Assembly (NCBI RefSeq): GCF_000829465.1
Contig: NZ_JXAL01000006.1
Span: 62,001 to 126,000 of the forward strand
Length of the DNA stretch: 64,000 nt
From: Cohnella kolymensis
GTDB taxonomy: Bacteria > Bacillota > Bacilli > Paenibacillales > Paenibacillaceae
Direction: 5' to 3'
Shown: piece after piece, positions 13,016 through 46,089 of the stretch
Layout: each line of letters opens with the position of its first letter
Numbering within the stretch: the first letter of the stretch is position 1
Program-made: the position numbers and the translations under genes
The notes under the pieces: model-generated
What the model was told of the DNA's origin: nothing
The model's database searches: none
What the model saw: only the letters and a program-made list of their open reading frames with translations

Positions 13016-13034
13016 GAGGCGCGCTTGTACGCTT

Positions 13035-13058
13035 TAAGACGGTTTTTCCGTCTTACAG
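13035..13058. repeat. Short palindromic repeat, copy 1 (TAAGACGG type)
   Basis: TAAGACGG-TTTTT-CCGTCTTACAG lies 20 bp after glyA. It belongs to the same family as the copies at 13084, 13136 and 28786-29016, and may also act as the glyA terminator, although no T-run follows. Confidence 0.6.
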
Positions 13059-13083
13059 CGAATGACGGACTCAAATTTCACCG

Positions 13084-13109
13084 TGTAAGGCGGGTTAGCC
13101 GCTCTACAG
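13084..13109. repeat. Short palindromic repeat, copy 2
   Basis: A 26-base unit beginning TGTAAGGCGG and ending CCGCTCTACAG; imperfect inverted repeat with a short central loop. Confidence 0.6.
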
Positions 13110-13135
13110 CGTGTGTTCTGTGGAAGTAGCTGCCG

Positions 13136-13161
13136 TGTAAGGCGGGTTAGCCGCCCTACAG
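13136..13161. repeat. Short palindromic repeat, copy 3
   Basis: TGTAAGGCGGG-TTA-GCCGCCCTACAG-type unit, 52 bp from copy 2, with the flanking bases CCG shared. The arms form an 8-base stem with one mismatch. Confidence 0.6.
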
Positions 13162-13231
13162 TGCATAAAGTATGGAGTTCCGACTCTGTAACGCCGATCA
13201 GCAGCCTTATTAACAAATTGGTTAGTTTTAA

Positions 13232-13260: not shown

Positions 13261-13270
13261 CTAATTATTC

Positions 13271-13350
13271 AGTATGTGCAATTACGTTACTACGTGGCTG
13301 ACAAGCCATCTCTAATCAGTATGTGCAGTTACGTCACTGCATGGTTGACG
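13271..13350. repeat. Two direct repeats of 33 bp
   Basis: Copies at 13271-13303 and 13318-13350 begin CAGTATGTGCA and agree at 28 of 33 positions, with a period of 47 bp. They lie in the 380-bp gap between glyA and the reductase gene, outside any gene. Function unknown. Confidence 0.6.
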
Positions 13351-28742: not shown

Positions 28743-28785
28743 GTTTTGCATCCTGTTCCGCGGCTTTGGATCAATCGATTGTCGC

Positions 28786-28811
28786 TGTAAGGCCGGTTGG
28801 CGGACTTACAG
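28786..28811. repeat. Short palindromic repeat, copy 4
   Basis: TGTAAGGCCGGTT...CGGACTTACAG, same family as copies 1-3. The outer arms TGTAAG/CTTACA are perfect and the inner arms imperfect. Confidence 0.65.
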
Positions 28812-28836
28812 GCGTTGCGTCAAGCAGTTTGGCCCG

Positions 28837-28862
28837 TGTAAGGCCGGTTATCGGACTTAGAG
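28837..28862. repeat. Short palindromic repeat, copy 5
   Basis: TGTAAGGCCGGTTATCGGACTTAGAG-type unit with a diverged right end, 51 bp from copy 4. A further degraded unit can be seen near 28889-28914. Confidence 0.55.
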
Positions 28863-28939
28863 CATACTTCGCGGGCTCAGTTTGTGCGTGCAAGTTCGGT
28901 GGCCAGACTTACAACTCGCCGGCCGAGCCGATTCCTCAC

Positions 28940-28965
28940 TGTAAGACGATTTTTCCGCCTTACAG
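28940..28965. repeat. Short palindromic repeat, copy 6
   Basis: TGTAAGACGA-TTTTT-CGCCTTACAG-type unit, followed by CTCGCCGGTCGAGC. Copy 7 lies 51 bp later with the same flank, forming a short tandem array. Confidence 0.7.
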
Positions 28966-28990
28966 CTCGCCGGTCGAGCTGATTTCTCTC

Positions 28991-29016
28991 TGTAAGACGG
29001 TTTTTCCGCCTTACAG
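28991..29016. repeat. Short palindromic repeat, copy 7
   Basis: TGTAAGACGG...CCGCCTTACAG, the most symmetric copy, followed by CTCGCCGGCCGAGC. This is the third occurrence of that flank in about 150 bp, including the partial copy before 28940. Confidence 0.7.
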
Positions 29017-29098
29017 CTCGCCGGCCGAGCCGATAAATTCAGGCGGTTCAGCGGGCTCACAGTAAGCTGGGAGCTTGCAGCTAGACGAATCGCTTTTG

Positions 29099-44485: not shown

Positions 44486-44688
44486 TTTTTCGGATTGGTG
44501 CCGGCGCTGCATTACTCCCTTTCAAGTCCTTATGGGCACTATCCCCGTCACTCAGGTGATACTCAAATCGATATAGAGATTGCTCAGGAACCGGATCAGC
44601 AAAATTGTAACTTCATTAAAATGATACCGTTTACATATTAGACTCGTCATTCATCCAAAATGTTGCGCAAACGAATATTGAAAAAATC

Positions 44689-45615
44689 TTAACTTGCTGC
44701 TGCTCTTACGCGGAAAAAGGACAAGGGTCTGGACTTTCTCCTTGCTGTTTTGTCACGGATCAACACAGGATAGGTCAAAGTAGGGGTACTAGCAGAAAGT
44801 TCTAATAGTTTAGTAAGAATCGGCTGTCGACGCAGCTGCATGTTCATTCCAAAGCAGTACTGATCCAAATAAGCTTGCAGATGTTTTCCGCCGATCCCAT
44901 GAAATGTAAAGTTCAGCCAACAGTTAAGCTTCTTGCACATCTGAAACAAAGGTTGAAATTTATTAGCACGGAATTTGCGTGTTTCAACGATCACTTCATA
45001 GGCATCAGGAGCCACATGTTCTTTAATAAATTGTCGTTTTCCGAAGCTGACGATGTAGCCTTCATTAAGATGATCCTGGGGCACTTGCTTGATTTTGACT
45101 TGAGCCAATTCCCCAGTCTCCTCGATGGAGGCGGCCATAAGAAGAATGTGTTCTTGCGGATGTAGATAGACGGTGGGGTTATATGGTCCGCCATATTGCC
45201 CCCAATTGATTCGAACCAGGCCGGTGAGCAATTCACTTTTGTCAGCTTCTCTCATGGCATGGCGGATTTTATGACAGATGAGCCAGGCTGTTTTGTAAGT
45301 TGTGTCGATAATGGAAGCTAACCGCAGCGCACTGATACCGCCAGGCTGAGCGTGGAGATACAGAGCTTGAAACCACAATCTCAACGGGGTACGGCTACCC
45401 TCGAAAATCGTACCGGCAATATGCGATGTCTGGTGTCTGCATGAACTGCATTCATACAGCGGCAGCTTACGACTGCGGATGACGTATGCATGCTGATCGT
45501 CACACCGCGGGCAGCGGAATCCGTCCGGCCATCTCGCTTCATACAAAGCAGCCCTGCAAACATCCTCCTGCTCAAAGCGCTCACAAAACTCCTCAAAGCC
45601 CAGAGATTCCACCAC
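44689..45615 (-). CDS. IS1595-type transposase-like protein, catalytic residues apparently lost
   Basis: 308 aa, GTG start at 45615 with GGAGG seven bases upstream. An intact zinc ribbon (C35, C38, C56, C59) and the IS1595 helix region (RLWFQALYLHAQPGGISALRLASII) precede an ISXO2-like domain. Where the family has its DE motif before the YxGG turn, this protein reads RINWGQYGG (N137, W138). The second TDG motif is not found, and the segment before KLNCW...KHLQAYLDQY is shortened. It therefore looks catalytically inactive: a decayed or domesticated transposase. No clear terminal inverted repeats flank it. A LexA-like box overlaps its promoter. Confidence 0.75.
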   Translation of the reverse strand: MVESLGFEEFCERFEQEDVCRAALYEARWPDGFRCPRCDDQHAYVIRSRKLPLYECSSCRHQTSHIAGTIFEGSRTPLRLWFQALYLHAQPGGISALRLASIIDTTYKTAWLICHKIRHAMREADKSELLTGLVRINWGQYGGPYNPTVYLHPQEHILLMAASIEETGELAQVKIKQVPQDHLNEGYIVSFGKRQFIKEHVAPDAYEVIVETRKFRANKFQPLFQMCKKLNCWLNFTFHGIGGKHLQAYLDQYCFGMNMQLRRQPILTKLLELSASTPTLTYPVLIRDKTARRKSRPLSFFRVRAAAS

Positions 45616-45633
45616 TATTATTCCTCCAAAATA

Positions 45634-45647
45634 AGAACATGTGTTCT
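45634..45647 (-). promoter_or_regulatory. LexA-like operator of the transposase-like gene
   Basis: The 14-base palindrome AGAACATGTGTTCT contains GAACATGTGTTC, an exact match to the GAAC-RNRY-GTTC core of the Bacillus LexA box. It lies 19 bases upstream of the GTG start and directly downstream of an AT-rich -10-like stretch (TATATA on the minus strand), a position where a repressor would block transcription. Confidence 0.6.
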
Positions 45648-45773
45648 ATATATAATTTACCAAAAAATCAATCGTCTAGCAATCAAAATTTTTTCGCAAC
45701 TGGAAGTTTTATTTGCTTTTTCAGGGTTCCTTCAAGAAAGTGATAACGGTTAAAAGCAAAAAAACTGAAATGG

Positions 45774-45895
45774 TCCTGCACGAGCGGGATAGAGGCCAAA
45801 AGGAGTCAATTGAGAGAACGTCCTGCACGAGCGGGATAGTGGACATAAGGGATCCAACACACAAAGCCTCCTGCATGAAGGGGATAGTGGCCATA
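45774..45895. repeat. Three direct repeats with period 47-48 bp
   Basis: Units start at 45774, 45821 and 45869, with the shared core TCCTGCACGAGCGGGATAG followed by WGGMCAWAAG. The third unit has several changes. A diverged fragment (GTGCACGAGCA) follows near 45920. CCTGC-ACGA-GCGGG can fold as a small hairpin in units 1 and 2. They lie in the 474-bp gap between the transposase-like gene and spoIID, outside any convincing gene. Confidence 0.7.
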
Positions 45896-46089
45896 AGTGA
45901 AGTTGCAGGGACATCTGATGTGCACGAGCAAACTGTACAGGAGGAAGCACACTGTCTAGCATTGTTGTTCTACCTATCGGATTGCCTGCATATTTTGAAA
46001 GCATCGGCGAACGCAGACAAGCTGTGAATCTTAAATAGAGAGTCTGCGATAGATTGCTGAAAATAATGTTTGGCAGGTGAGCCATTCCC

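Follow-up and report, generated by a model that had tools for sequence, protein, structure and literature searches.

The gene on the minus strand at positions 44689-45615 of the window (the whole stretch of 64,000 nucleotides of Cohnella kolymensis DNA analyzed here) is neither a live insertion sequence nor merely one domesticated regulator; gene and repeats together have the appearance of a REP/RAYT-like system that arose from a DDE-type element, lost the catalytic function and stands under SOS-type control. The anatomy of gene and repeats, their conservation and orientation, the agreement of the two ends, the cognate arrays that lack a gene, a single loss of catalysis within the tree sample, vertical inheritance at the sigG-ylmC interval and an amplification in one further genome (G031) are each supported directly. 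As an explanation of the whole we favor, at somewhat better than even odds, the descent of the family from an SOS-inducible ISPaen6-type insertion sequence, of which repeat arrays and a cognate binding protein that does not cut would be what remains.

The protein and its catalytic positions

Read from the window, the open reading frame encodes 308 aa from a GTG start and lies antisense to both of its neighbors, murA and spoIID, whose identification in the preliminary description holds. Pfam and NCBIfam profiles and a profile-profile alignment describe the product as a catalytically degenerate IS1595-like protein composed of a C4 zinc ribbon, a TYKTAW..CHKIRHAM region that we take to be helix-turn-helix-like, a remodelled and shortened core, and a C-terminal KHLQAYLDQ block. 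The zinc ribbon, previously described as kept, matches Zn_ribbon_IS1595 (PF12760) at E 1.3e-13 in Pfam and was found in all 63 aligned family members. DDE_Tnp_IS1595 reached only E 0.064, below the Pfam cut-off, and the NCBIfam profile NF033547 scored 70.2 bits against a cut-off of 75. By these profiles the protein is of IS1595 type and not the HuH/Y1 transposase of a RAYT/REPtron. Plasmid matches amounted to 296 records, every one below 60% identity, and most of the 12 listed are annotated as IS1595-family transposases; phage matches to the family were limited to three weak records. Searches for PDB relatives returned five chance-level matches for A1 (best E 0.13) and none for A2.

The genome that carries the window (G000) gave seven family matches, which correspond to six genes (the window gene, or L001, and L002, L003, L004, L005 and L007); L006, considered as a seventh paralogue, proved to be an assembly overlap of L002. 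The L002 protein is 64% identical to the window protein. L007, found by the own-genome homologue search at G000:C1:92558 (locus L044, G000:C1:88000-97000), encodes 166 aa comprising the zinc ribbon and helix-turn-helix region only, and has two LexA-type boxes and long arrays on its upstream side only.

Catalytic positions were read against the nearest catalytic relatives, the ISPaen6-type IS1595 transposases (a name taken from P0128), in whose 39-row alignment D138, D205, N243 and K245 are invariant. Aligned by hhalign, the family profile (63 rows) matches this catalytic profile (39 rows) over nearly its full length with probability 100 and E 1.3e-82. Inspected by eye, the profile-profile alignment places N137/W138 of the window protein opposite the first catalytic Asp and its neighbor (D138 D139 of L094), V opposite the second catalytic Asp (D205) and K opposite the third catalytic residue (N243); 19 columns are missing after the second position. 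The alignment thus bears out three earlier readings of the sequence, namely that the first catalytic position reads NW, that the second acidic position is gone and that the core is shortened. The loss is also consistent across homologues, as the preliminary description had expected of a domesticated protein: the best 120 of 652 family proteins, among them the window protein, retain D138 in 5 cases, D205 in 4 and N243 in 8, compared with 120, 119 and 118, respectively, of the best 120 of 4525 catalytic relatives. The DDE/DDN triad of an IS1595 insertion sequence is therefore absent from the window protein and from most family proteins. A single clade with support 100/100 unites 56 of the 57 family rows in the tree and sets them apart from the 26 catalytic rows, the exception being L007, a short protein on a very long branch. 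Because these 56 rows group in a single clade, we conclude that, within the tree sample, catalysis was lost once and early, before the family diversified, and not in the window gene.

It is conceivable that the protein is still a nuclease whose active site has been rebuilt. The N that occupies the D138 position in 86 of the best 120 of 652 family proteins and the amplification of the G031 elements with two of three catalytic residues gone would fit such an enzyme, which we nevertheless judge very improbable given that the invariant columns of the 63 members contain no acidic residue, that E72, N-terminal to the core, is the only one among the near-invariant columns, and that columns are missing after the second Asp. 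An active site masked by misalignment was considered separately; hhalign and a joint alignment revealed none, P0086 being the sole protein with D, E or N at all three aligned catalytic positions, and this protein is counted against the main reading.

Outward repeat units with and without a gene

The earlier statement that no obvious terminal inverted repeats bracket the gene has to be withdrawn. On its downstream side a minus-strand unit, CCTGAGTGACGGGGATAGTGCCCATAAGG, lies at ~44528-44557 (pattern site C6:106529-106555, sequence reading), and on its upstream side a repeat search identified three plus-strand units, at 45773-45803, 45820-45850 and 45868-45898, so that all four point outward; the three upstream units read CCTGC rather than CCTGA. 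The own-genome loci L001-L005 are all bracketed by outward units of ~30 nt with the core CTGA-N6-GGGATA, spaced 45-52 bp apart where iterated. In a pattern-free test, from which L006 was left out, the 750-bp flanks of each locus were compared with each other; their best match in inverted orientation exceeded all 8 shuffles at 27 of 35 loci and did not at the other 8. Counted with the pattern CTGA-N5-7-GGGAT at 34 loci, units upstream of the genes number 105 outward and 0 inward, and those downstream 44 and 0. Both flanks carry the pattern at 29 of the 34 loci; a control set of 69 loci, drawn from lexA loci and from gene-less sigG-ylmC and spoIID loci, has 5 sites in 246,424 bases and gives an expectation of 1.1. 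The strict pattern is missing upstream of the window gene itself, downstream of L002, L020 and L030, and on both sides of L032. As the pattern was taken from own-genome loci prior to counting, the flank count contains some circularity, which affects the analyses given below (counts over whole genomes, site orientation in G020 and the survey of 60 genomes) to a lesser degree. L006 and L007 were left out of the unit counts and of the comparisons of sides, proteins and clusters that follow.

Within a locus, the variable halves of the units on one side match those on the other, with an identity of 0.67 compared with 0.44 between loci (29 loci), or 0.66 compared with 0.39 when sigG-ylmC orthologues are removed (18 loci); the permutation p was 2e-4 in both comparisons, the minimum possible with 5000 permutations. 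Repeat similarity also follows protein similarity (Mantel r 0.67 for 33 loci and 0.53 for 21 loci without sigG-ylmC orthologues), a correlation that is partly expected from common descent. With inverted flanks in the pattern-free test, patterned units on both flanks and sides that agree, the family genes are surrounded by cognate inverted repeats as RAYT/REPtron genes are. Compared by eye, the unit is similar to the repeat at the ends of catalytic relatives (ATATCAAGTTNGCTCAG vs TTATCCCCTTCGCTCAG; L148, L101), and because of this resemblance the arrays may most simply be read as iterated end repeats. Where an IS1595 insertion sequence has terminal inverted repeats, the family has inverted units that are iterated, and in G031 homology extends past them.

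The repeats are not confined to the genes. The own genome contains 98 core sites, against 8 for the reversed control, and these fall into 13 clusters whose neighboring pairs are outward in 11 cases and inward in none; G020 contains 402 sites against 12 reversed, the first 100 of the 402 giving 8 outward and 0 inward pairs. By the own-genome homologue search, a family gene is absent from 10 of the 13 own clusters. When these 10 were matched to a pool of 33 gene loci (5 own and 28 from other genomes), the repeats of an own-genome gene were the best match in every case, those of L004/L005 for seven clusters and those of the window gene or L002 for three. The window gene entered this matching by its single downstream unit, its upstream units not fitting the pattern. 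The match of one cluster, C6:61k, was weak (0.73), and four of the 10 lie within ~26 kb of the matched gene, where local duplication may account for them. Three own clusters are doublets of the simple 1+1 kind; when RNA folding was scored, L217 and L219 gave z-scores of -5.5 and -6.7, well beyond shuffles, and L222 just -1.8. Dispersed cognate inverted doublets with hairpins, as in RAYT/REPtron systems, are accordingly present, with RNA folding weak for L222.

Across 60 genomes, the median density was 15.7 sites per Mb in the 47 with the gene and 4.5 in the 13 without (Mann-Whitney p 1.6e-7), in a comparison that ignores relatedness and in which G044 and G054, whose best E values were 2.0e-4 and 4.7e-4, are classed as without the gene. 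Site density and gene density were correlated (Spearman 0.66, 60 genomes), again partly as expected from common descent. We count against the main reading that genomes without the gene still hold sites at 3 times their reversed control, and we note one exception, G057, which is unenriched: its 7.2 Mb contain 10 gene matches and just 26 sites.

Another family of palindromic repeats (GTAAGRCGGNTTNNCCGNCTTAC, ~51-bp period) was observed at window positions 13032-13162 and 28783-29034. It gave 127 strand hits in the own genome at up to 2 mismatches, where a palindrome may count on both strands, against 0 for the reversed sequence. Two 37-nt copies (TATTCAGTATGTGCAATTACG...), 47 bp apart at window positions 13266-13349, adjoin the first GTAAGRCGGNTTNNCCGNCTTAC array.

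LexA-type operators, inheritance and spread

The GAAC-N4-GTTC palindrome reported previously between the -10-like region and the start codon is confirmed as a LexA-type operator, GAACATGTGTTC, at 45635-45646, located between the -10-like region and the RBS/start by motif search and upstream comparison. In the adjoining promoter region on the minus strand (45647-45680; upstream comparison, coordinates by eye), the -10-proximal operator has decayed to GATTGATTTTTTGGTAAATT: the five other own-genome paralogues retain an operator that overlaps the -10 (GAACATAYGTTTGGTAWAAT), and the window gene has lost that box and keeps the start-proximal one. Judged within the window alone the box is weak, with 3 matches against 1.05 expected and as many reached in 9 of 100 shuffles. 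Among homologues, however, at least one box of the form GAAC-N4-GTTY or RAAC-N4-GTTC lies within 160 bp upstream at 35 of 35 family loci (six from the own genome plus the top match from each of 29 others, with L006 left out), compared with 3 boxes in 126,775 bases over the rest of these loci; two boxes are present at 10 of the 35. A box of the same form precedes lexA itself at all 30 lexA loci fetched from the genus and order. It is this conservation across loci, as in the promoters of a LexA regulon, that makes the window operator convincing and rules out a chance palindrome, which the window on its own would have allowed. The family genes are thereby predicted to be under LexA control.

Inspected by eye, the catalytic relatives L148, L101 and L150 carry LexA-type boxes too, and for this reason the SOS-type switch is probably ancestral. 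The same boxes, taken with the resemblance of the repeats to the terminal repeat of catalytic relatives, could suit a self-inhibitor of transposition, that is, a dominant-negative relative that is co-induced with catalytic SOS-regulated relatives and covers or titrates their ends; since the repeats of the subfamilies have diverged from the catalytic ends, we give this proposal only a slight chance. We also observed that a LexA-type box separates L150 (G019:C28), a broken catalytic relative, from the family-like gene that comes directly after it.

Family matches were found in 49 of 60 genomes, the own genome included: in all 37 Cohnella genomes, which have 2-27 matches each, and in 12 of the 23 others. 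At the sigG-ylmC interval, a family gene is present at 12 of the 30 loci fetched, belonging at 11 of these to the subfamily of the window gene, whereas the other 18 hold none with both neighbors in view; six named Cohnella records, partly identical genomes, show the same arrangement. The gene is thus vertically inherited at this interval within a Cohnella clade. Of the 30 loci fetched on the spoIID side, 8 carry a gene; another 12 show none as far as murA, and the remaining 10 are pieces that stop short of murA. Two named records have a family gene between murA and spoIID. Five of the 8 genes are of the L004/L005 type, not the window type, and because the subfamilies beside spoIID differ between species, the site has probably been filled more than once. 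The notion of a conserved locus therefore holds at sigG-ylmC and fails at murA-spoIID.

Selection on the protein is evident from low dN/dS, in line with what the preliminary description had anticipated: 0.24 for the own paralogues L004/L005 (the window gene/L002 pair not being computable), a median of 0.23 in G031, and, with dS near saturation, 0.05 and 0.06 for the two orthologue pairs compared at sigG-ylmC. These low ratios at sigG-ylmC, together with vertical conservation at 11 of the 30 loci fetched, are what a host-domesticated, SOS-controlled regulator of neighboring core or sporulation genes, as proposed earlier, would produce; its occurrence at many unrelated loci in each Cohnella genome, its absence from 18 of the 30 sigG-ylmC loci and the fact that the repeats track the gene's own subfamily make that role improbable.

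The G031 genome (Cohnella silvisoli, going by protein names P0072 and P0084) contains ~17 copies, roughly 86-94% identical, at different loci: homology spans 1.4-1.7 kb, repeats included, and the outer flanks differ. This genome has therefore undergone a past amplification. Full-length reading frames are open in 15 of 16 copies, and the median dN/dS among these 15 was obtained at dS ~0.10, with L060 (which has a stop) and L061-L063 left out. The protein retains the first Asp and lacks the second and third catalytic residues. IS1595 insertion sequences produce an 8-bp target duplication; the ends of the G031 copies, inspected by eye, are uneven, with no constant target duplication seen. A search for an empty site corresponding to the copy L054 matched the right flank in 12 of 35 other genomes, left the left neighbor unmatched (blastn, 8 loci) and gave no boundary. 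By eye, the starts and ends of the G031 copies (L045-L060) often lie beside terminator-like hairpins and runs of T or A, which would suit insertion at intrinsic terminators. Separately, short family reading frames of 152-173 aa were seen at L114 (G020:C11), G020:C16, G020:C27, G008:C14 and G008:C34, four of them at most 100 bases from a contig end, where near-identical multi-copy elements may possibly have broken the assembly.

The strongest rival to our reading is that the genes and arrays are non-autonomous insertion sequences that an intact ISPaen6-type transposase mobilizes in trans, the degenerate protein being a passive remnant. Such movement would explain the ~17 copies in G031 and the MITE-like appearance of the gene-less arrays, and catalytic relatives do occur in some Cohnella genomes (for example L094 and L143 in G002, with broken ones in G018 and G019). 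A passive remnant, however, is hard to reconcile with reading frames that remain open and under constraint after amplification in G031, with the dN/dS of L004/L005, or with a single degenerate clade in which operators still stand at every one of the 35 loci. Moreover, the end sequences vary between subfamilies and from catalytic relatives, and the sole clearly catalytic IS1595 among the 7 listed of 10 own-genome matches, L097, has no phmmer match to the window protein. We therefore regard mobilization in trans as unlikely, although it deserves more weight than the other alternatives. The earlier view of a domesticated protein rather than a live insertion sequence survives in part: catalytic loss, SOS-type operators and low dN/dS agree with it, and multiple copies, inverted ends, cognate gene-less repeats and spread do not. 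Domestication at a single locus as the whole account is ruled out by the paralogues, the G031 amplification and the gene-less arrays.

Proposed mechanism and comparison with known systems

In the mechanism that we favor, the family of Cohnella, Paenibacillus and relatives would derive from an SOS-inducible ISPaen6-type IS1595 insertion sequence whose DDN triad was lost a single time, ahead of family diversification, while selection continued to act on the zinc ribbon and helix-turn-helix region, the LexA-type promoter was retained and the terminal inverted repeat grew into an array of outward units on either side of the gene. DNA damage would inactivate LexA and so allow the protein to be made; the protein would then bind its own repeat variant, in the two flanking arrays as well as in cognate arrays elsewhere that lack a gene, and could pair or bridge the bound arrays without cutting. 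The product is thus probably an SOS-induced DNA-binding protein that recognizes, and probably pairs, arrays derived from terminal inverted repeats, although DNA binding, the bridging of arrays and their mode of spread are what we infer from sequence. Spread of genes and arrays would be rare, with cutting supplied elsewhere, either by a catalytic relative or by replication or repair at hairpin-forming doublets. Some cutter is missing from this model, because the G031 copies spread even though their protein was already without its second and third catalytic residues.

More tentatively, and with less than even confidence, we suggest that the family may represent a new class of repeat partner, a protein that descends from a DDE-type insertion sequence, is catalytically dead and is induced by DNA damage, and that binds and pairs the end-derived arrays it has spread or maintained in intergenic regions of Paenibacillaceae. 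Such a system would be the DDE-derived equivalent of RAYT/REPIN, and several lineages of protein and repeat would co-evolve in one genome. No account of this family appears among the titles and abstract openings listed by keyword searches on IS1595, LexA-controlled transposases, RAYT/REPIN, domesticated transposases, MITEs or Paenibacillus repeats. If the proposal is true, the repeat-partner architecture would have a second, unrelated origin, from a DDE-type insertion sequence without its chemistry, and what such a partner needs (recognition, pairing and inheritance) would be separable from the way in which DNA is cut. The several subfamilies with distinguishable repeats in one genome make protein-repeat specificity directly testable, and the conserved SOS-type switch supplies a testable condition for the system's action.

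Relative to ISPaen6-type IS1595 elements, the family shares the zinc ribbon, helix-turn-helix region and C-terminal block, as reflected in the near full-length profile match, and, by eye, the LexA-type boxes and related end repeat of L148 and L101. Unlike them, it lacks D138-D205-N243, has a shortened core and ends iterated into arrays, and is vertically kept in a clade. The transposases of ISCR1/ISCR8, IS10 and Tn5/IS50 are working enzymes. According to passages of PMC13393415, LexA controls the transposase genes of ISCR1, ISCR8, IS10 and possibly Tn5/IS50, with an operator that overlaps the -10 in ISCR1, ISCR2 and ISCR8, and the window family likewise has a LexA-type operator at the promoter of a transposase gene; iterated end arrays go unmentioned in those passages and are a feature of the window family.

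The closest organizational parallel is with RAYT/REP/REPIN systems (PMC3116915, PMC8266576), in which a gene is linked to cognate repeats, the repeats are matched to their own gene, and dispersed inverted doublets can fold as hairpins; matched repeat-protein lineages and vertical inheritance complete the organization that the window family shares. RAYTs are HuH enzymes, and E. coli TnpA-REP is reported to process single-stranded REP in vitro (PMC3116915, PMC8266576), whereas the window family is of IS1595 type without catalytic residues, has an SOS-type promoter and forms arrays more commonly than doublets. By analogy, then, the window family would work like a REP/RAYT pair, yet it is no member of the RAYT family.
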